This document shows positions 8,911 through 17,595 of a stretch of 36,560 nt of DNA, one piece after another; the first letter of the stretch is position 1; each line of letters opens with the position of its first letter. The stretch is from Pseudoxanthomonas sp. GTDB lineage: Bacteria; Pseudomonadota; Gammaproteobacteria; Xanthomonadales; Xanthomonadaceae. The stretch covers positions 1 through 36,560 of the forward strand of contig NZ_JANJUE010000151.1 in NCBI RefSeq assembly GCF_024710765.1, read 5' to 3'. Under the pieces are notes generated by a model, which saw nothing but the letters and a program-made list of their open reading frames with translations, did not search any database and was not told the origin of the DNA. Both the position numbers and the translations under genes were made by a program.

Positions 8911-11013
8911 TCAGGCGCCTGCGTAGCGCGCCGCGCCGCCGACCCAGCGCTGGACGATGCGATCCGCCAGAGCCGGCGACTCCGCCAGCAGGCGATCGGC
9001 CAGATCACGCACCTGCGGCAGCAGGCCTGCGTCGCGCGCCAGATCCGCCACGCGGAACGTCGCCAGGCCGGTCTGCCGGGTGCCCAACAGTTCGCCCGGC
9101 CCGCGCAGCTCCAGATCCTTCTCGGCGATGACGAAACCGTCGTTGGTCTCGCGCATGGTCGCCAGGCGCTGCTTGGCCATCTGCGACAGCGGCGCCTGGT
9201 ACATCAACACGCAAGTGGACGCGGTCGCGCCGCGTCCCACCCGTCCACGCAGCTGGTGCAACTGCGCCAGTCCGAGCCGTTCGGCGTTCTCGATGATCAT
9301 CAGCGAGGCGTTGGGCACGTCCACGCCGACTTCGATCACGGTGGTGGCGACCAGCAGATCACTCTCGCCCTGCTTGAACGCGCGCATCGCCGCCTGCTTC
9401 TCGGCCGCCTTCATCCGGCCGTGGACCAGTGCGATGCGCAGTTCCGGCAGCGCGGCGGAAAGCTGTTCGTAGGTGGTCTGGGCGGCCTGCGCGATCACTT
9501 CGTCGCTGTCGTCGATCAGGGTGCAGACCCAGTACGCCTGTCGGCCCTCCGCGCAGGCGGCGCGGATGCGTTCGACCAGCTCCGGCCGGCGCTCGGCGCT
9601 GAAGGCCACGGTATGCACCGGCGTGCGTCCGGGCGGCAGTTCGTCGATGGCCGAGACATCGAGATCGGCGTAGGCCGCCATCGCCAGCGTGCGCGGAATC
9701 GGCGTGGCCGTCATCACCAGTTGGTGCGGGATCGACTCGCCGCTGGCGCCCTTGTCGCGCAGCGCCAACCGCTGGTGGACACCGAAGCGGTGCTGCTCGT
9801 CGACGATCGCCAGCGCCAGATCCTGGAACGCGACCGCCTCCTGCATCAGCGCATGGGTACCCACCACCACCTGCGCCTTGCCCGAAGCCACCTCTTCGAG
9901 CACCTGCGCGCGCGCCTTGCCGGTGACCTTGCCGGCCAGCCATGCCACCCGGATGCCCAGCGGCTCCAGCCATTGGCGCAGATTGGCCAGATGCTGTTCG
10001 GCCAGCAATTCGGTGGGCGCCGCCAGCGCGGCCTGCCTGCCCGCCTCGACCGCCAGCATCGCCGCCATCGCCGCGACCACGGTCTTGCCGCTGCCGACGT
10101 CGCCCTGCACCAGCCGCAACATCGGCGAAGGCTGCTTCAGGTCCTCGCGGATCTGCTTGAACACCCGTTGCTGCGCGCCGGTCAGGCGGAACGGCAGCGA
10201 CTTCACCAACTGCCCCGCCAGGGTGCCGCGCCCGGTCAATGCCGGCGCGCGATGGCGCTGCAGGGCGATGCGCTGCCGGCGCAGGCTCAGGTGGTGGGCC
10301 AGCAGTTCCTCCAGCGCCAGCCGCCGCTGGGCCGGATGGCGTCCGGCCGACAATGCCGGCAGGTCGGCATCGCGCGGCGGGCGATGCATGACCAGCAGCG
10401 CCTCGCGCAGTGAAGGCAGGCTGGATTCACGCAGCAACGCATCCGGCAGCAGTTCCAGCGACGCGTCCGCCGGCAGGCGGTCCAGGGCCTGCCCGACCAG
10501 CTTGCGCAGGCTGGCCGGTCCCACGCCCTCGATGGCCGGATAGATGGGGTCCAGCGCCTCGCCGAGCGCCACGTCGGCCTCCGCATCGAGCACCCGGTAA
10601 CTGGGATGCACGATCTCCAGGCCATGCAGGCCGGGCTTGGGCGTGCCGTAGCAGCGCACCCGCGTGCCCGGCGCGAACTGCGCGACCTGCGCCGCGCGGA
10701 AATGGAAGAACCGCAGCACCACCGTCGCGTGCGAGTCGTCGCCGATCGCCACCCGCAATACCGGCCGGTAGCGGAAGCCGCGTTCGACCGCCTCCACCCG
10801 GCCTTCCAGCTGCGCCGGCACGCCGGGCCGGAGCGCGCGTATGGGTGTCAGCGCGGTGCGATCCTCGTAGCGCAGCGGCAGGTGCAGCCACAGATCCTGC
10901 AGGGTCAGCAGGCCGCGCGCCGCCAGCTTTTCGGCGATGCGCGCGCCCACGCCTTTCAGCGACGCGATCGGAAGGCGGGCCACCTCGTCGGCCCCGGGAC
11001 TGGCATACGGCAT
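8911..11013 (-). CDS. recG: ATP-dependent DNA helicase RecG
   Basis: RecG (700 aa; the E. coli protein is 693) remodels stalled replication forks and branch-migrates recombination intermediates. The N-terminal wedge domain (helix-hairpin-helix LKGVGARIAEKLAARG, then an OB fold with LHLPLRYEDRTALTPI) is followed by the SF2 helicase core: Walker A GDVGSGKTVVAA, Walker B DEQHRFG, MTATPIPRT and motif VI QLRGRVGRG. The start is uncertain: the ATG at 11013 (MPYASPGADE) has no clear Shine-Dalgarno. A GTG nine codons later (VARLPIASL), after GGGGCCGACGAG, is an alternative. In many gammaproteobacteria recG lies close to spoT; here the TonB receptor module separates them. Confidence 0.96.
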   Translation of the reverse strand: MPYASPGADEVARLPIASLKGVGARIAEKLAARGLLTLQDLWLHLPLRYEDRTALTPIRALRPGVPAQLEGRVEAVERGFRYRPVLRVAIGDDSHATVVLRFFHFRAAQVAQFAPGTRVRCYGTPKPGLHGLEIVHPSYRVLDAEADVALGEALDPIYPAIEGVGPASLRKLVGQALDRLPADASLELLPDALLRESSLPSLREALLVMHRPPRDADLPALSAGRHPAQRRLALEELLAHHLSLRRQRIALQRHRAPALTGRGTLAGQLVKSLPFRLTGAQQRVFKQIREDLKQPSPMLRLVQGDVGSGKTVVAAMAAMLAVEAGRQAALAAPTELLAEQHLANLRQWLEPLGIRVAWLAGKVTGKARAQVLEEVASGKAQVVVGTHALMQEAVAFQDLALAIVDEQHRFGVHQRLALRDKGASGESIPHQLVMTATPIPRTLAMAAYADLDVSAIDELPPGRTPVHTVAFSAERRPELVERIRAACAEGRQAYWVCTLIDDSDEVIAQAAQTTYEQLSAALPELRIALVHGRMKAAEKQAAMRAFKQGESDLLVATTVIEVGVDVPNASLMIIENAERLGLAQLHQLRGRVGRGATASTCVLMYQAPLSQMAKQRLATMRETNDGFVIAEKDLELRGPGELLGTRQTGLATFRVADLARDAGLLPQVRDLADRLLAESPALADRIVQRWVGGAARYAGA

Positions 11014-11092: not shown

Positions 11093-13528
11093 TCAGAACC
11101 GGGCGCTGAACTCCACTCCGACCTGGCGCGGCGCGGAGATCGAGGCGAACGGCGTGCCCAGCACCGAGGCGGAGATGTTGTTCACTCCGGTCACGTAGCG
11201 CTTGTCGAACACGTTGTTGCCATACACGCCCACGCCCCAGGTGCCGTCGGCCGACGACCACTGCACGCGCATGTCGGTGCGGTTCTGCGCCTCGCCGGTG
11301 CGGAAGGCCGGGCTGGCCTGGCAGGTGCCCTGGGTTTCCGATTCGGCATTGCAGCGGCCCTTGCCGCGATAGGCGTGCAGCAGCGAGAAGCGCAGGTCGC
11401 CGGCGTCCCCCAGGTTCACGGTATAGCCCGCGCCCAGCGACGCCGACAGGTAGGGTTCGCCGGTGGGATCCCCGGAAATGTCCCGGCCGTTGGTGGACAG
11501 GCCATCCTTGTAGGTCGCGTCGATGAAGGCGGTGTTGAGGGTCAGGTCGAGACCGGTCACCGGACGCCATTGCAGGTCCACGTCAACGCCCCAGGCCTGC
11601 ATGTCGCTGGTGTCGACGACATAGCGCGGCACGCCGGAACCGGCCGTGTTCAAGTCCAGGCTGATCGCCTGGCGGTCCTTGTAGACGTAGTAGTAACCGG
11701 AGGCGTTGAGCGACAGCTTCTGCTCCGGGAACACGGTCTTGATGCCGAACTCGGCATTCCACACGTCCTCGTTGTCGAATTGCGACTGCGGCTGCACGCT
11801 GTTGAAGCCGCCGGCCTTGTAGCCCTTGGCCAGCGAGCCGAACACCATGGTGTTGTCGTTGACCGCGTAGTCGACGACGAAGCGCGGGCTGAGATCGGTC
11901 CAGGATTTCTTGCGGCTGTTCCTCACCCCTTCCAGCTCACCGAAGGCAAAGACGAAGTCCTGGTTGAACATGTCGGCGCTGACCGGATAGCCCATCTGCT
12001 GGAGCAGTTCGAAGAAACCCTGCTGATCCAGCATCGCCACGGTCGCGTCCAGGGTGGCCGCGTCGCGTGGGCCATTGAACCAGCTGAACTCCTTGCGGTC
12101 GTGGGTCAGGCGCAGGCCGAAGGTCAGGTTCCAGCGGTCGTTGACGTGCCAGATGACGTCGCCGAACGCCGCATAGGCTTCGGCCTTGCCCTCGTTGATC
12201 ATGCTCTCGCGCCATGGATGGCCCTGCAGGCGCAACGGCAGGCCGGCCCCCTCGAGGACCTGATCCAGCAACGCGATGATGTTCACGCCGCCGAAATTGG
12301 GCAGGTTGCCCATCGCGGTGCCCACGCTGTCGGTGAACAGGTTGGTCTCGCTGGTCTGGTCGGCCTCCTCCTTGAACCAGCTGGCGCCGGCCACCCAGTC
12401 GAACCTGCCCGATACGCCCGAGAACTTGAACTCCTGGTAGTAGCTGCGGTTGCTCTCGATGTTGGCGGTGTCGAAGTACAGGTTGATGCGGTTGGTGCCA
12501 TCCTCGTCCTCGCGGTTGACCGTGTCGAAATCACGCACCGCGGTGGTCGACTGCAGGCTGCCCCACGGAAATGCGTGATCGATCTGCAGGGTCAGGCCAT
12601 TGAAGGTGCGTGACTCCTCGTTGTTGACCACGTCGTTGAACACCGGTGCCTTCAGCGGATTGATGTAGCTGTCCGGATCCGCGGGGTATGGCGCGGGCGT
12701 CGGATACGGTCCCAGCGCCACCAGGCCGACCGCCGGACGCGCCAGCTGGTCGATGTTCTCGTAGTCCCAGGACAGGTTGAGGGTGGTCGATTCGCCCAGG
12801 TCCGAACGCCAGGCCGCGCGCAGGGCCATCGTGTCTTCGGGATTGAGCCGGTCGCCGGTCGCCGCATCGGTCATCCAGCCGTCGCTGTGGTTGGACAGCG
12901 CGCTGAAGCGCAGCGCATGGCGCTCGCCGAACGGCACGTTGAACAGGCCGGACAGATAGCGGCGGCCGTCCTCGCCCACGCGGATGCGGGCGTTGCCCTC
13001 GGCCACGTTGCTCGGCTTGTTGGTGATGATGGACACGGCGCCGGCGGCGCTGTTGCGCCCGAACAGGGTGCCTTGCGGTCCCTTCAGCACCTCGATGCGC
13101 TCGATGTCGTTGAAGGCCAGCATTGCGCCACCGGTGCGGGCCGAATAGACGCCGTCGATGTAGACGCCCACGGCCGGATCCGTGCCGATGCCGAAGTCGC
13201 CGGTGGAAATGCCGCGGATGGCGTAGCGCGGCTGGGTCGGGCTGCCGTCGGTGACCTCCAGCCCGGGCACGAACATGTCCAGATCACCGATGTCGGCGGC
13301 GGCCACCTGATCGATCATCTCGCCGTTGAGGACGTTGATGGCGATCGGCACGTCCTTCAATTCCTGCTCGCGGCTCTGCGCGGTCACCTTGATGGTGTCC
13401 AGCGTGGTCGCATCATCCTGCGCGGGAGCGGCCTGCCCCCATGCGGCACCCGAAACCCCCAGCAAAGCGCAGCTTCCGAACAGGGCGTGCCGCAGCCCCA
13501 CTACCAGACACCGTTGATTCAACTTCAT
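11093..13528 (-). CDS. TonB-dependent outer-membrane receptor
   Basis: This 811-aa TonB-dependent transporter has a signal peptide (hydrophobic stretch about 9-30, probable cleavage at AWG-QA) and a TonB-box-like segment LDTIKVTAQ. A plug domain follows (VPIAINVLNGEMI, PRYAIRGISTG, VGVYIDGVY, IERIEVLKGPQGTLFGRNSAAGAVSIITNKP), then a 22-strand-type barrel ending in aromatic Phe (VGVEFSARF). The plug resembles receptors common in sphingomonads and xanthomonads for large or hydrophobic organic ligands more than siderophore receptors, but the ligand is unknown. GTG 13531 is directly followed by ATG 13528; I chose the ATG, 5 nt after GGGAGG. It is the last gene of a three-gene operon, 39 bp after the diheme gene. 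Confidence 0.93.
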   Translation of the reverse strand: MKLNQRCLVVGLRHALFGSCALLGVSGAAWGQAAPAQDDATTLDTIKVTAQSREQELKDVPIAINVLNGEMIDQVAAADIGDLDMFVPGLEVTDGSPTQPRYAIRGISTGDFGIGTDPAVGVYIDGVYSARTGGAMLAFNDIERIEVLKGPQGTLFGRNSAAGAVSIITNKPSNVAEGNARIRVGEDGRRYLSGLFNVPFGERHALRFSALSNHSDGWMTDAATGDRLNPEDTMALRAAWRSDLGESTTLNLSWDYENIDQLARPAVGLVALGPYPTPAPYPADPDSYINPLKAPVFNDVVNNEESRTFNGLTLQIDHAFPWGSLQSTTAVRDFDTVNREDEDGTNRINLYFDTANIESNRSYYQEFKFSGVSGRFDWVAGASWFKEEADQTSETNLFTDSVGTAMGNLPNFGGVNIIALLDQVLEGAGLPLRLQGHPWRESMINEGKAEAYAAFGDVIWHVNDRWNLTFGLRLTHDRKEFSWFNGPRDAATLDATVAMLDQQGFFELLQQMGYPVSADMFNQDFVFAFGELEGVRNSRKKSWTDLSPRFVVDYAVNDNTMVFGSLAKGYKAGGFNSVQPQSQFDNEDVWNAEFGIKTVFPEQKLSLNASGYYYVYKDRQAISLDLNTAGSGVPRYVVDTSDMQAWGVDVDLQWRPVTGLDLTLNTAFIDATYKDGLSTNGRDISGDPTGEPYLSASLGAGYTVNLGDAGDLRFSLLHAYRGKGRCNAESETQGTCQASPAFRTGEAQNRTDMRVQWSSADGTWGVGVYGNNVFDKRYVTGVNNISASVLGTPFASISAPRQVGVEFSARF

Positions 13529-13567
13529 CACTCCCTCCCAGAAGCGTTGTCTTTACGGATTTACCCC

Positions 13568-14758
13568 TCAGGTGGACGCCGGTACCGCTTCTCCCCCCGG
13601 CCCATCCCCATCACAACTGCCGTGCTGCGCGCGAATCCACGCATCAATCAGTTCAACGCCTTCGCGGTGCACCACCGAGCGCCCCAGCTCCGGCATCATC
13701 ACCGCCGGGTCCGCGCTGTCCATGCGGAAACTCAGCACGGATTCGTCCGGCTTGCCAGGCTCGATGTCGTGGCGCCGGTCACCGGTGCCCTTGCCCGCCG
13801 CGATCGGCTGCTTGCAGAAACCCAGCTTGAGACGATCATGGGTCGCCGCGTCCAGCCACAGGCCGGAAGTGATCGCCGGACCAGTCGGGCTGTGGCAATG
13901 CCCGCAGTTCACGTCCAGGTAGGCGCGCGCGCGCGCATCCAGGCTGGCATTGGCCGCGTCCATCCAGTCCGCGTCGCGCGGTGCCTGCGCCGGCGCGGGC
14001 GCGCCGGTCAGGTAGCCCACGCGCGCCAGGTGCGCGAGCTGATTCTCGCGCCCTTCGCGATAGTCGAAATCCCGGTTCAGGTGGCGTGCCTTGGGACCGA
14101 TCGGCGACAGCTGGCGCGACCGGTTGTCGGTCAGGTGGCAACCGCCGCACTGGTTCTGGTCCGGCACCTGGTACGCCGCCTCCTCGCGCTGGCCGGAGGC
14201 ATCGACCAGATCCAGCGTGATCAGATCGCCGGTGCGCTTGAGGGTGGCTTCGGTCTGCGCTTCGTTCCAGACGTAAGGCATCGCGACCCAACCCGATTCC
14301 CGCCGCACCAGCAGGCGGGTTTCGATCAGGCGCACGCGCGACAGATCCAGCGATTCCTGCTCCAGCACGCTGGCCGACGGCGGCGTGCGCGCCACCGAGC
14401 GGCCATCCCACGCCTGCCCCGCCGGCAGCGGGTAGTAGAAGGTCTTGCTGATGATCGTGCCGACCGGGAAGTCGAGCGCCGCATCGGGCCGATACGCGGC
14501 GCTCTTGCCCTTGGGCATCCAGATCGTGCGCAGCTTGTGGGCGTAGTCGCTGAACAGCGGCGTGTTGAGATCGTAGGGCACCACGCCTTCGTTCAAGATC
14601 AGGCGGCCGTCCTCGATGCGCAGGACGTGCCAGTCATCCAGGCGCGCCGGCTGTCCCTCGGCGAAGAAGGCCACCTCCTGCGAACGCTTGCATCCCGCGA
14701 GCAGCACGGCGGCCAGCAAAGCGGCGATGGCCACTCCCGCGGCCCGGTACTTCCGCAT
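13568..14758 (-). CDS. Diheme c-type cytochrome-like lipoprotein (HNE_0200/SO2930 family)
   Basis: The 396-aa protein carries a lipoprotein signal ending LLAGC (Cys23), with Lys at +2, which favours sorting to the outer membrane. Two haem c attachment sites are present: CGGCH (204-208) and CGHCH (285-289). A possible Met axial ligand lies in MMPELGR (about 354-360). The segment VVPYDLNTPLFSDYAHKLRTIWMPKGK is characteristic of a family I recall as TIGR03806 (HNE_0200; also called SO2930 diheme cytochrome), found next to parallel beta-helix proteins (TIGR03805). That is the case here: the gene starts only 5 nt after the beta-helix gene. The family's biochemical role is unknown; electron transfer coupled to an envelope oxidation is inference. 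Confidence 0.88.
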   Translation of the reverse strand: MRKYRAAGVAIAALLAAVLLAGCKRSQEVAFFAEGQPARLDDWHVLRIEDGRLILNEGVVPYDLNTPLFSDYAHKLRTIWMPKGKSAAYRPDAALDFPVGTIISKTFYYPLPAGQAWDGRSVARTPPSASVLEQESLDLSRVRLIETRLLVRRESGWVAMPYVWNEAQTEATLKRTGDLITLDLVDASGQREEAAYQVPDQNQCGGCHLTDNRSRQLSPIGPKARHLNRDFDYREGRENQLAHLARVGYLTGAPAPAQAPRDADWMDAANASLDARARAYLDVNCGHCHSPTGPAITSGLWLDAATHDRLKLGFCKQPIAAGKGTGDRRHDIEPGKPDESVLSFRMDSADPAVMMPELGRSVVHREGVELIDAWIRAQHGSCDGDGPGGEAVPAST

Positions 14759-14763
14759 CGTGC

Positions 14764-15993
14764 TCAACCCCGCTTCAGGTCCACCGCGGGCAGGCGCGGC
14801 AGTTCGCACTGGAAGGACCGGGTGTCCTTGCTCGGGCTCTTGTAGCCGCCGGGGCCATCGGCGTTGATCACGCCGCTGACGTCGCGCAGGCAGATTTCCG
14901 GCCCACGCGCCTGGCCGTCGACCTTGCGGTCCTTGTTGTAGTAGCCGTCCCACAGCACGTCCGGGAAATTCCCGCGCAGCCCGTACATGGCTACCTTCAG
15001 CGCCTTCAGATCGAAGCCGTCTGGCGAGTCGCCGCCGCCGGACAGGGTATTGCCATGCACGTAGACCCGCTCCGGGTAGGGATCGAAGGTTTCCGACTTG
15101 CTCGAATCCTTGTAGCCGGTGGAGTAGACGCTGGAGATGATGATGTTGGTGGTCGCGTTGTCGCGGATCTCGTTGCCGAAGATCTCGATGTCGTCGTTGG
15201 AATTGACCACGATGCCGGAGCCGGCCGGGACGCTCGCCACCGGCGTGCCCTTGGCGCCGAAGTTCTCGTGGTTGTTGGCGATCACCTTGTTGTTGAACAC
15301 GCGGATGTTGCCGCCCTGCTGCTTGAGGCCGGGCATGTTGAACACCAGGATGCCGCCGGTGTTGCCGGTGGCGACGTTGTCGTAGACGTCGGCATTGATG
15401 GTGTTCTCGATCTCGATGCCGGCCACGTTCTGCTCCGCGCGGCTGCGCCGCACGATCACGCCGTCGGACTGGCCCACGTAGATGCCGGCGTCGGAGGCGC
15501 CGATGGAAACCGAGTCCTCGATCAGCACGTTCTTCGCCAGCACCGGGTACAGGCCATAGGCACCGTTCTTGGTGCTCGGACCACCGGTCCATTCCACCTT
15601 CACGCCGCGGATGGTGATGTTCTCCGACTCGCTGATCTTCAGGCCGTCGCCCTTGGAATCCTGGATGGTCAGGTTCTCGATGGCGAAGTCGTCGCCGTTG
15701 ACCAGCAGGCCCTCGGCGCCGGCCTTCTGGCCCTTGAAGCTGAGCACGGTCTTGTCCATGCCCGCGCCGCGGATGGTCACGCCGTCCGCGCGCAGGGTCA
15801 GGCTGCGGTCGAAGTGGTAGGTGCCGGCGGGAATCTCGATGACGTCGCCAGGCTTGGCATCGAGCAGCCGCTCGTGGAGCTTCTGCGAGAAGTCCGCGCT
15901 CGCCGCATCGGCCTTGGGCGCCTGTTCGTCGGTCTTCGGCTGGCAGGCGGCCAGCGCCAGTGCCAGGCCCACCATCAACATCGTCCGCTGCAT
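14764..15993 (-). CDS. Right-handed parallel beta-helix repeat lipoprotein
   Basis: This 409-aa protein has a lipobox LALAAC (Cys17, Gln at +2), predicting an outer-membrane lipoprotein. From about residue 50 it consists of beta-helix rungs: GDVIEIPAGTYHF, LTLRADGVTIRGAG, FAIENLTIQDSKGDGLKI, ENITIRGVKVEW, NVLIEDSVSIGASDAGIYV and GIEIENTINADVYDNVATGN, then IVVNSNDDIEIFGNEIRDN. The fold is shared with pectate lyases and alginate epimerases, but no catalytic set can be assigned. The C-terminus (from about 330) is a non-repeat cap with two cysteines (368, 396). ATG 15993 follows GGGGAGGG. It is the first gene of the operon with the diheme lipoprotein and the TonB receptor. The pairing matches families I recall as TIGR03805/TIGR03806. 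Confidence 0.9.
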   Translation of the reverse strand: MQRTMLMVGLALALAACQPKTDEQAPKADAASADFSQKLHERLLDAKPGDVIEIPAGTYHFDRSLTLRADGVTIRGAGMDKTVLSFKGQKAGAEGLLVNGDDFAIENLTIQDSKGDGLKISESENITIRGVKVEWTGGPSTKNGAYGLYPVLAKNVLIEDSVSIGASDAGIYVGQSDGVIVRRSRAEQNVAGIEIENTINADVYDNVATGNTGGILVFNMPGLKQQGGNIRVFNNKVIANNHENFGAKGTPVASVPAGSGIVVNSNDDIEIFGNEIRDNATTNIIISSVYSTGYKDSSKSETFDPYPERVYVHGNTLSGGGDSPDGFDLKALKVAMYGLRGNFPDVLWDGYYNKDRKVDGQARGPEICLRDVSGVINADGPGGYKSPSKDTRSFQCELPRLPAVDLKRG

Positions 15994-16143
15994 CGCATTC
16001 CCTCCCCGGTCATCGCGCGGCGGCCGGCGGCCACCATACGCGTGCGAATTCAGTAATTGAGAGTCTTGTCCCACTGGTTTCCCTGAAGTAGGGCAGGAGC
16101 GGCATACTTGGGGGGGCAAAGCGGACAAGCTGGAGGGGCTTCG
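15994..16143. promoter_or_regulatory. Divergent control region between the beta-helix operon and its AraC regulator
   Basis: For the leftward operon the best -10 is TATGGT (16038-16033, minus strand), with a non-consensus -35 (CTCAAT at 17 bp), as expected of an activator-dependent promoter. GGACAAG (16071-16065, minus strand) lies just upstream of that -35. The same GGACAAG occurs on the plus strand at 16123-16129, forming an inverted pair. For araC, CATACT (16103-16108) is a possible -10. These are candidate regulator sites; none is proven. Confidence 0.4.
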
Positions 16144-17187
16144 ATGCGCCGTAAACTGGGCCTGGACGGGGGCAATCGCCTGTCCATCGCCAATCTGCCG
16201 ACCAACATGCTGTGCAGCCTGGTGCTGCTGGCGGGCGAGTTGGGGGTCAACTGTGAGCCCTGGTTCAGCGGGCTGCGCCTGACGCCGCGCGAAATCCAGG
16301 ATCCGCAGGCGCGGGTGTCCTACCGCCAGGCCACCGAGGTCATCCGCCGTGCCTTGCCGACCCTGCCGATCGAGGATGTCGGCCTCGCCCTGGGCGGCAA
16401 CCAGAACGGCGCCAACTTTGGCCTGCTCGGCCTGGCGATGCGGATGGCGCCGAACTTCGGCGAGGCGGTCAACATCGGCCTGACCTACCAGCGCAACCTG
16501 GGGCCGCTGATGGACCTGCAACTGCTGCAGGAGGATCCGGACGTGGTGTCGGTGGTGGCGACCACCCCGCTGGATCTGCCCGAGATCCTGCCGTTCCTGT
16601 GCGAGGAAATGTTCTCCAGCGTACTGATGCTGGCGCGCGAACTGGCCGGCCCGGAGTTCCATCCGGTCCGCCTGGATCTGACCTACCCCGCCCCGGCCTA
16701 CGCCAGCAAATACAGCCGCATGTTCGAATGCGAGGTGCGGTTCCGCCAGGGCCAGAACCGGATGCTGGTGGATCGCAGCTGGTTCTCGCTGCCGTTTACC
16801 AGTTACAACCCGGTGGGTTCGCAACAGGTGCTGGCGCTGTGCCACGCGCAACTGGCCGCGGTGGCGACCTCGGGCGAGGCGACCGCGGCGGTGGAACGGC
16901 AACTGCGGCCGCGCCTGCGCGAGAACCCGCAGATGACCGAGATCGCGACCGCCCTGCATCTGAGCGAGCGGACGTTGCGCCGGCAATTGTCCGACGAGGG
17001 CCAGCGCTTCAGCGACATCCACGACCGCGTGCGCACGGATCGTGCGCTGGAACTGCTGCAGGACCGGGAACTGACCATCGCCTACATCGGCACCCAACTG
17101 GGTTTCAACGACGTGCGCGAATTCCGTCGCGCTTTCAAGCGCTGGACCGGGCATACGCCCAGTGAGGCGCGCGATCGCATGGTGTGA
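16144..17187 (+). CDS. AraC-family regulator with arabinose-binding-like (PF12625-type) sensor domain
   Basis: The 347-aa protein has an N-terminal sensor region (about 20-210: PREIQDPQARVSYRQATEVI, NFGLLGLAMRMAPNFGEAVN, REFHPVRL-like strands) typical of the AraC subgroup that includes regulators of lipid, sphingosine, ornithine and steroid-related genes. A C-terminal double HTH follows: first about 264-286 (MTEIATALHLSERTLRRQL), second about 311-343 (YIGTQLGFNDVREFRRAFKRWTG). ATG 16144 is preceded by GGAGGGG at good spacing. It is divergent from the beta-helix/diheme/TonB-receptor operon and is the obvious candidate activator. Its ligand is unknown; a hydrophobic one is suggested only by family analogy. 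Confidence 0.92.
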   Translation: MRRKLGLDGGNRLSIANLPTNMLCSLVLLAGELGVNCEPWFSGLRLTPREIQDPQARVSYRQATEVIRRALPTLPIEDVGLALGGNQNGANFGLLGLAMRMAPNFGEAVNIGLTYQRNLGPLMDLQLLQEDPDVVSVVATTPLDLPEILPFLCEEMFSSVLMLARELAGPEFHPVRLDLTYPAPAYASKYSRMFECEVRFRQGQNRMLVDRSWFSLPFTSYNPVGSQQVLALCHAQLAAVATSGEATAAVERQLRPRLRENPQMTEIATALHLSERTLRRQLSDEGQRFSDIHDRVRTDRALELLQDRELTIAYIGTQLGFNDVREFRRAFKRWTGHTPSEARDRMV

Positions 17188-17211: not shown

Positions 17212-17595
17212 TCAGCCGGTGACCATCACCGCATCGACCTCGAACGCCGCGCCCTTGGGCAGGCCGGCCACTTCGATGGTGGAACGCGCCGGGAACGGCG
17301 CCTGGAAGTAGTCCTGCATCACTGCATTGACCTTGGCGAACTCGCCCAGGTCGGTCAGGTACAGGCCCAGGCGGACGATATCGCCGAGCGAGCCGCCGGC
17401 GGCTTCGGCCACCGCCTTGAGGTTGTCGAACGCCCGGCGTGCCTGCGCCTCGATGTCGCCCTCGACCAGGTTGCCGGTCGCCGGGTCGAGCGGGATCTGG
17501 CCGGAGAAGTAGACGGTGTTGCCGGCGCGCACCGCCTGCGAGTACGGGCCGATGGCGGCGGGCGCCTGCTCCGTGTGGATGATCTGCTTGCTCAT
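17212..17595 (-). CDS. ridA: RidA family reactive intermediate/imine deaminase
   Basis: RidA (127 aa) hydrolyses reactive enamine/imine intermediates such as those released by threonine dehydratase, protecting PLP enzymes. Family elements are seen throughout: [28 protein letters not shown], the turn [16 protein letters not shown], and the C-terminal [24 protein letters not shown], with the substrate-binding Arg in PARS. It acts as a trimer in the cytoplasm. It follows spoT in the same direction, as in Xanthomonas (gmk-rpoZ-spoT-ridA), but a REP doublet fills the 164-bp gap. It converges with the AraC gene, with only 24 bp between the stops. Confidence 0.95.

Follow-up and report, generated by a model that had tools for sequence, protein, structure and literature searches.

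A four-gene envelope block in Pseudoxanthomonas with a beta-helix lipoprotein and a diheme lipoprotein carrying a cytochrome P460-like domain

The DNA examined here (the window) is the whole stretch of 36,560 nucleotides at positions 1 to 36,560 of contig NZ_JANJUE010000151.1 from Pseudoxanthomonas sp. (assembly GCF_024710765.1). Between recG and ridA it carries a block of four genes: a beta-helix lipoprotein and a diheme c-type lipoprotein (together, the pair), a TonB-dependent receptor and an AraC-type regulator. An original prediction, made from the letters of the window, placed the first three leftward with the AraC gene divergent, and all four are found where it put them, each scoring over its family cut-offs. 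The features are as follows.

11093..13531, minus strand: TonB-dependent receptor of the pair-associated clade (PF07715 and PF00593 above cut-off)
13568..14758, minus strand: diheme c-type lipoprotein, TIGR03806 (profile score and two CxxCH motifs)
14132..14659, minus strand: P460-like domain of the diheme protein, approximately residues 34-209
14444..14446, minus strand: codon of Lys105, at the P460 haem-crosslinking lysine position (P98-x-G100-x4-K105)
14135..14149, minus strand: haem-1 motif C204-x-x-C-H208, within the P460-like domain
13892..13906, minus strand: haem-2 motif C285-x-x-C-H289; likely sixth ligand Met355
14764..15993, minus strand: beta-helix lipoprotein, TIGR03805, predicted AlgE-like right-handed parallel beta-helix
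16098..16128, minus strand: operator candidate TTGTCCGCTTTGCCCCCCCAAGTATGCCGCT, between the AraC and beta-helix starts
16144..17187, plus strand: AraC-type regulator, PF12625 sensor and C-terminal helix-turn-helix; start provisional
8911..11013, minus strand: recG, one boundary of the insertion site
17212..17595, minus strand: ridA (Rid family), the other boundary

The receptor has both plug and barrel (PF07715, 69.7 bits; PF00593, 99.5 bits; both over cut-off). The beta-helix protein scores 433.8 bits against TIGR03805 (curated cut-off 141.5) and the diheme protein 398.4 bits against TIGR03806 (curated cut-off 313.3), the two families named in the original prediction. The regulator matches PF12625 at 132.4 bits and HTH_18 at 69.3 bits, both over cut-off; an alternative in-frame TTG start lies at 16108. 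The gap between the beta-helix and diheme genes is 5 bp, as predicted, and the predicted 39 bp between the diheme and receptor genes holds from the receptor ATG, becoming 36 bp from its GTG. Each exported protein carries a lipobox with Gln or Lys as the next residue, in agreement with two lipoproteins bearing Lol-permissive +2 residues, and the two expected CxxCH sites are present in the diheme protein, whose closest named relatives are from Pseudoxanthomonas (77% and below). A crude lipobox scan of other loci was positive for 82 of 139 beta-helix and 90 of 140 diheme genes, with gene starts uncertain; not every member, therefore, need be lipid-anchored. Promoter and terminator predictions showed no excess relative to shuffled sequence.

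The four genes occur, are absent and recur together as one block. TIGR03806 exceeds its cut-off in 27 of 37 Pseudoxanthomonas genomes, counting that of the window; elsewhere in the order it does so in 1 of 24 genomes. Around each of 25 Pseudoxanthomonas loci some 19 kb was fetched, and all 25 hold the four genes in identical order between ridA and recG; the arrangement is thus not due to chance. In eight of the nine module-free Pseudoxanthomonas genomes ridA adjoins recG, with 56-189 bp between the aligned parts, and the distance in the ninth (G010) is 636 bp. The same adjacency is seen in three module-free genomes from another genus of the family. Outside the genus the entire block is also found in L091, from the same family, and in L083, from a different family of the order, with no ridA or recG in the fetched stretch of either. 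In the Pseudoxanthomonas genome G022 the AraC gene and an operator-like site are present and the contig stops directly behind them.

The operator pattern, TTGTCCGYTTTNCCCCCCNNAGTATGCCGCT, was derived from 7-mers common to the regions upstream of beta-helix genes, and its presence at those source loci is therefore circular, its absence elsewhere in 61 genomes being the informative part. Allowing up to 3 mismatches, 28 of the 61 genomes contain one site each and the other 33 contain none; the reversed pattern occurs in none of the 61. By coordinates the site lies at the module in 27 of these 28 genomes, the 28th being G022, and G032 has the module with a divergent operator-like site only. The window site, 16098-16128(-), has an expectation of 0 in shuffled sequence. 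It comprises two direct half-sites (TGNCCGN...CCC) spaced by about 22 bp, and AraC operators often consist of two direct half-sites. We infer that the AraC protein, whose gene adjoins the pair in 25 of 25 Pseudoxanthomonas loci, binds this tandem repeat. Inspection by eye of 11 Dyella/Rhodanobacter-type loci located a related direct repeat of TGGCCGNTTT before the beta-helix gene in L142 and L144 (Rhodanobacter, Dyella), a less exact one in L150 and L151, and none in the other seven; the Pseudoxanthomonas pattern itself is absent from the Dyella/Rhodanobacter loci inspected. With one regulator, one candidate operator and three target genes, the block is well suited to an inducer screen.

The receptor belongs to a clade seen almost exclusively next to the pair. 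The window receptor was searched for in 30 genomes (E ≤ 1e-60, at most 33 candidates scored per genome), among them one unrelated genome, G077, which gave no match. It was matched in 11, ten of which have the matching gene next to the pair; the eleventh, G317, has a 30% match located elsewhere. At the same threshold no match was observed in five module-free relatives, nor in Pseudomonas-type, Shewanella-like and several other pair-bearing genomes. Some pair loci without this receptor have another receptor type nearby, for example L110. Quick trees of the receptor and of the combined beta-helix and diheme proteins were built on the same 39 rows; of 50 loci these were the ones in which each of the four proteins gave a clean piece, which left out L065 and L066 among the genus loci. 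The receptor tree does not hold Pseudoxanthomonas together: its starred branches force at least 3 changes and a single clade is rejected (approximately unbiased test, p-AU 7e-5). In the tree of the pair the genus falls to one side of a branch whose support is 88. It therefore appears that the pair was retained through exchanges of the receptor or through sorting of old receptor copies. Luteimonas cucumeris (L140:12454-14940) looks a clear case of exchange, its receptor grouping with three Pseudoxanthomonas receptors and its pair with Luteimonas gilva.

The fixed block, the empty sites, the one operator-like site per genome and the pair-bound receptor clade together support a self-contained unit, probably inducible. 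The original prediction had described such a module and named a lack of conserved linkage of receptor and AraC gene with the pair as its refutation. Within Lysobacterales the linkage is conserved; outside that order the receptor is usually absent and the AraC gene is not seen in the named loci. Relatives of the beta-helix protein are encoded at 582 genome places, and the best 80, a non-random set kept by likeness to the query, were taken as named loci. In all 80 the diheme gene follows the beta-helix gene on the same strand. Among the 16 named Lysobacterales loci, 15 have the receptor within 1.2 kb; the AraC gene lies within that distance in 12 and no more than 6 kb away in 15. The 64 named loci outside Lysobacterales all have the pair, with the receptor within 1.2 kb in 6 and the AraC gene in 0. 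Those six are Kordiimonas L169, Kordiimonadaceae L172, Hyphomonas L188, Maricaulis L197, Oceanicaulis L203 and the unassigned proteobacterium L176; the first five have close by a gene of cluster c22, TetR-like by eye, one member of which gave no NCBIfam match at E ≤ 1e-15 when scanned. A Pfam TetR gene is present at L112, also a receptor-linked locus. A further 35 loci, of which 34 have both genes, include 6 with the receptor inside 1.2 kb (one divergent) and 3 with the AraC gene inside that distance. Receptor and AraC gene are lineage accessories of the pair, and since both are mostly absent outside Lysobacterales, the core reaction of the pair would need neither. At L196:6097-14788 (Arenimonas daejeonensis) the gene caller missed a diheme frame detected by tblastn and called spoT and the receptor short; the reading frames there may be broken.

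A sample of 398 genomes across the phylum, counted by hand from profile tables, indicates what the diheme unit keeps as company. A strong TIGR03806 domain is present in 42 genomes (45 domains). In 39 of the 42 it lies next to TIGR03805, six times as one reading frame, and in the remaining three (four domains: L104, L219, L220 and L221) the diheme part is fused to a PF07995 glucose/sorbosone dehydrogenase (GSDH). In this sample the diheme unit is always accompanied by a substrate-type module. The four fusions are very long proteins (L104:6983-10459, L219:5883-11000, L220:5220-11000, L221:3-6989), with an F5/8 type C domain in L219 and starch-binding CBM26, further cytochrome c and PSD domains in L220 and L221. 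Six genomes (G375, G384, G377, G186, G292 and G405) have a lower-scoring TIGR03805 match (178-187 bits) without a strong TIGR03806; their beta-helix proteins form a longer subfamily with open frames of 509-580 residues.

The structure model of the diheme protein is confident (predicted local distance difference test score, pLDDT, 92.3). In the family alignment all 141 rows that have residues at these positions keep both CxxCH motifs. Lys105 is lysine in 142 of 142 rows with a residue at its position, with the full P-x-G-x4-K motif in 141 of 142, and its equivalent is lysine in all four GSDH-fused members; a search for the motif K-[TSA]-F found no match in these four fusions. The profile alignment sets Lys105 on the crosslinking lysine of cytochrome P460, the motif residues of the Methylococcus protein being given as Pro71, Gly73 and Lys78 (PMC6427953); the haem-crosslink positions used for comparison were taken from PMC6427953 and PMC11928373. 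In the main alignment set neither Arg77 nor Glu146 varies; both vary in the GSDH fusions. Outside the haem motifs no conserved Met or His offers a sixth ligand for haem 1 other than Met355, which is conserved in 140 of 140 rows and is the likely sixth ligand of haem 2. The window protein scores 13.4 bits against Pfam PF16694, under the gathering score of 27, and the profile alignment to P460 loses confidence past the stretch ending at Lys105. We accordingly make no claim for Glu146 as the distal carboxylate. Among solved structures the family finds four matches by sequence at E ≤ 1, the best at 0.28, and the first is a probable cytochrome c peroxidase. Homology of the haem-1 domain to cytochrome P460 is supported but not proven. 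With a haem-1 domain that is like cytochrome P460 and that retains the position of the crosslinking lysine, the diheme protein probably does more than accept electrons, the role first proposed for it. A P460-like reactive haem would give the pair a testable chemistry in spectrum, crosslink and substrate.

For the beta-helix protein, a sequence search for solved relatives returned weak matches only. The predicted fold is AlgE-like, with 21-22% identity to the AlgE mannuronan C-5 epimerases. The NosD models give 36 bits against a cut-off of 300 (NCBIfam TIGR04247) and 36.0 against 23.6, above cut-off (Pfam PF05048). Its invariant polar residues, D168, Y172, Q175, E194, E196 and N197, are a set of its own. 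The original prediction had the beta-helix bind or cleave a substrate; cleavage would be conjectural. Family scans revealed no redox-cofactor domain in it, although no search was aimed at one.

Genes around the pair in other genomes offer hints of a pathway. The absence of linked cytoplasmic enzymes had been remarked upon, and is correct for Pseudoxanthomonas; it does not extend to Rhodanobacteraceae, where 9 of 10 named loci have an aldehyde dehydrogenase directly after the receptor (-1 to 87 bp). These enzymes form one cluster, and L176 has a member of it at the same place. The L132 enzyme is class-3-like, and its best PDB match is a steroid aldehyde dehydrogenase (322.7 bits), followed by an unspecified and then a fatty aldehyde dehydrogenase. 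In the six named Lysobacteraceae loci no aldehyde dehydrogenase of this cluster stands at the post-receptor position. Homologues (46-50%) occur elsewhere in Pseudoxanthomonas genomes, module-bearing and module-free alike, and co-occurrence with the module in that genus is therefore not specific; the window genome has one unlinked 47% homologue of the Dyella post-receptor enzyme (G000:C80:26798-28132). In Caulobacter (L152) the second gene downstream of the pair encodes a pyrroloquinoline quinone (PQQ) alcohol dehydrogenase, and members of its cluster occur in L160 and L162. A hemerythrin-domain gene (cluster c86) adjoins the pair downstream in L113 (8229-8714) and upstream in L114 (7314-7631). 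The genes around the block at L176:178-21218 look by eye like those for an AtuA-type terpene-utilisation protein, a ring-hydroxylating oxygenase, an AMP ligase and acyl-CoA dehydrogenases, a possible substrate clue. Overall the neighbours lean towards alcohols or aldehydes of hydrophobic compounds, without fixing the substrate.

We read the four genes as an inducible envelope oxidation unit comprising a P460-like reactive haem, an exit haem and a beta-helix substrate partner, and give this reading a probability of roughly 0.45. Drawing on sequence and structure models, the AraC protein would bind the tandem repeat when ligand is present, the TonB receptor would admit ligand or substrate, and the AlgE-like beta-helix lipoprotein would hold the substrate. 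The diheme protein would be the redox catalyst, with haem 1 in the P460-like domain, Lys105 at the crosslink position and Arg77 and Glu146 as candidate distal-pocket residues; the Met-ligated haem 2 would hand electrons on to the respiratory chain. In loci with a linked aldehyde dehydrogenase, an aldehyde may be what the unit produces. It is also conceivable, if rather unlikely, that the diheme protein is a relay only, that the beta-helix (or the PF07995 propeller) is or binds the catalyst and that the P460-like domain is an inherited scaffold. PF07995 is a known dehydrogenase fold, and this arrangement would sit well with the PQQ alcohol dehydrogenase near the pair in L152, L160 and L162, with the beta-helix protein's own invariant polar set and with the variation of Arg77 and Glu146 in the GSDH fusions. 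Yet the invariance of Lys105, Arg77 and Glu146 in the main set exceeds what a scaffold needs, haem 1 lacks a conserved Met or His sixth ligand, and the family scans of the beta-helix protein, none of them aimed at a redox cofactor, came back without such a domain.

The dedicated receptor clade and the aldehyde dehydrogenase linked in relatives better fit a carbon substrate than a protective unit, in which the P460-like haem would bind or oxidise nitric oxide, hydroxylamine or peroxide at the envelope and the receptor would bring only signal or iron. Cytochromes P460 do oxidise hydroxylamine, and a gas-binding role is proposed for cytochrome c'-beta in passages of PMC11928373 and PMC6427953. 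Pseudomonas-type and Shewanella-like loci have the pair without an adjacent receptor, and the hemerythrin-domain gene of L113 and L114 also points this way. That gene aside, none of 30 scanned proteins was named as a nitrogen-oxide protein, and we consider protection improbable. Iron uptake, with the receptor taking a ferric chelate, the diheme protein reducing or stripping the iron and the beta-helix as accessory, seems very improbable. The best NCBIfam model of the receptor is indeed a TonB-dependent siderophore receptor (TIGR01783, 130.2 bits), but the score is below the cut-off of 223.5, the PDB matches lie in the N-terminal plug end, and outside Lysobacterales a receptor of this kind is missing from the vicinity of most pairs.

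Searches of the open-access literature turned up no study of what the pair does and nothing that connects it with P460; common as the pair is, no function is assigned to it there. Two papers name TIGR03805 in annotation tables only, as an exopolysaccharide-cluster gene and a putative adhesin, with no diheme partner stated (PMC3584217, PMC5847202). The Shewanella proteins SO_2930/SO_2931 belong here, TIGR03806 being the SO2930 family of diheme c-type cytochromes, which the window protein matches at 398 bits. SO2931 is described as a diheme outer-membrane lipoprotein (PMC5357785), appears among several outer-membrane cytochromes (PMC12175506, PMC10986466), was deleted jointly with several genes for electrode work (PMC5829830) and is filed under Fe/Mn oxide reduction in a transcriptome paper (PMC5955497); a list of outer-membrane or extracellular c-type cytochromes contains both SO_2930 and SO_2931 (PMC4837345). 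These passages report no test of the proteins' own function. The Shewanella-like loci L098 and L099 have a beta-helix/diheme fusion and a second diheme gene, with no TonB receptor match; an AraC gene is among their neighbours, and in L098 also a VolA/Pla-1 family phospholipase. At L098:7594-9822 the fused gene is separated from the second diheme gene, whose N-terminus looks cut, by two small genes that by eye resemble insertion-sequence genes of transposase type.

The regulator resembles QhpR and similar PF12625 AraC proteins, QhpR being its best NCBIfam model, but scores 144 bits against a cut-off of 250. QhpR regulates an amine dehydrogenase, and no amine dehydrogenase gene is named among the neighbours of the block regulator. 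The beta-helix protein resembles the mannuronan C-5 epimerases in its predicted AlgE-like fold; its invariant residues are its own, and any shared catalysis would be conjectural. The diheme protein is like cytochrome P460/c'-beta (PF16694) in its beta-sheet domain ending in CxxCH, in the lysine position of P-x-G-x4-K and in having no conserved Met or His sixth ligand at haem 1; one of its arginines aligns with a P460 arginine that, judged from spacing, would be the capping Arg50. Cytochrome P460 has one haem per chain, whereas the TIGR03806 protein has two haem motifs, and differs further by its probably Met-ligated extra cytochrome domain, its lipoprotein nature, its beta-helix partner and its Pfam score beneath the cut-off. 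In a 2025 review (PMC11928373) the words diheme and fusion have 0 occurrences, and the abstract of PMC11726666 names as hydroxylamine oxidisers only hydroxylamine oxidase and cytochrome P460, both with a P460 haem; a third lineage of that type would be new. Tentatively, and with more doubt than confidence, we suggest that TIGR03806 is a second widespread lineage of lysine-crosslinked P460 enzymes, having its own exit haem and an interchangeable substrate module (AlgE-like beta-helix or PF07995) and wired in Lysobacterales to a TonB receptor and a one-site regulator for oxidation of an imported organic compound. If so, P460 chemistry would reach beyond hydroxylamine oxidation.

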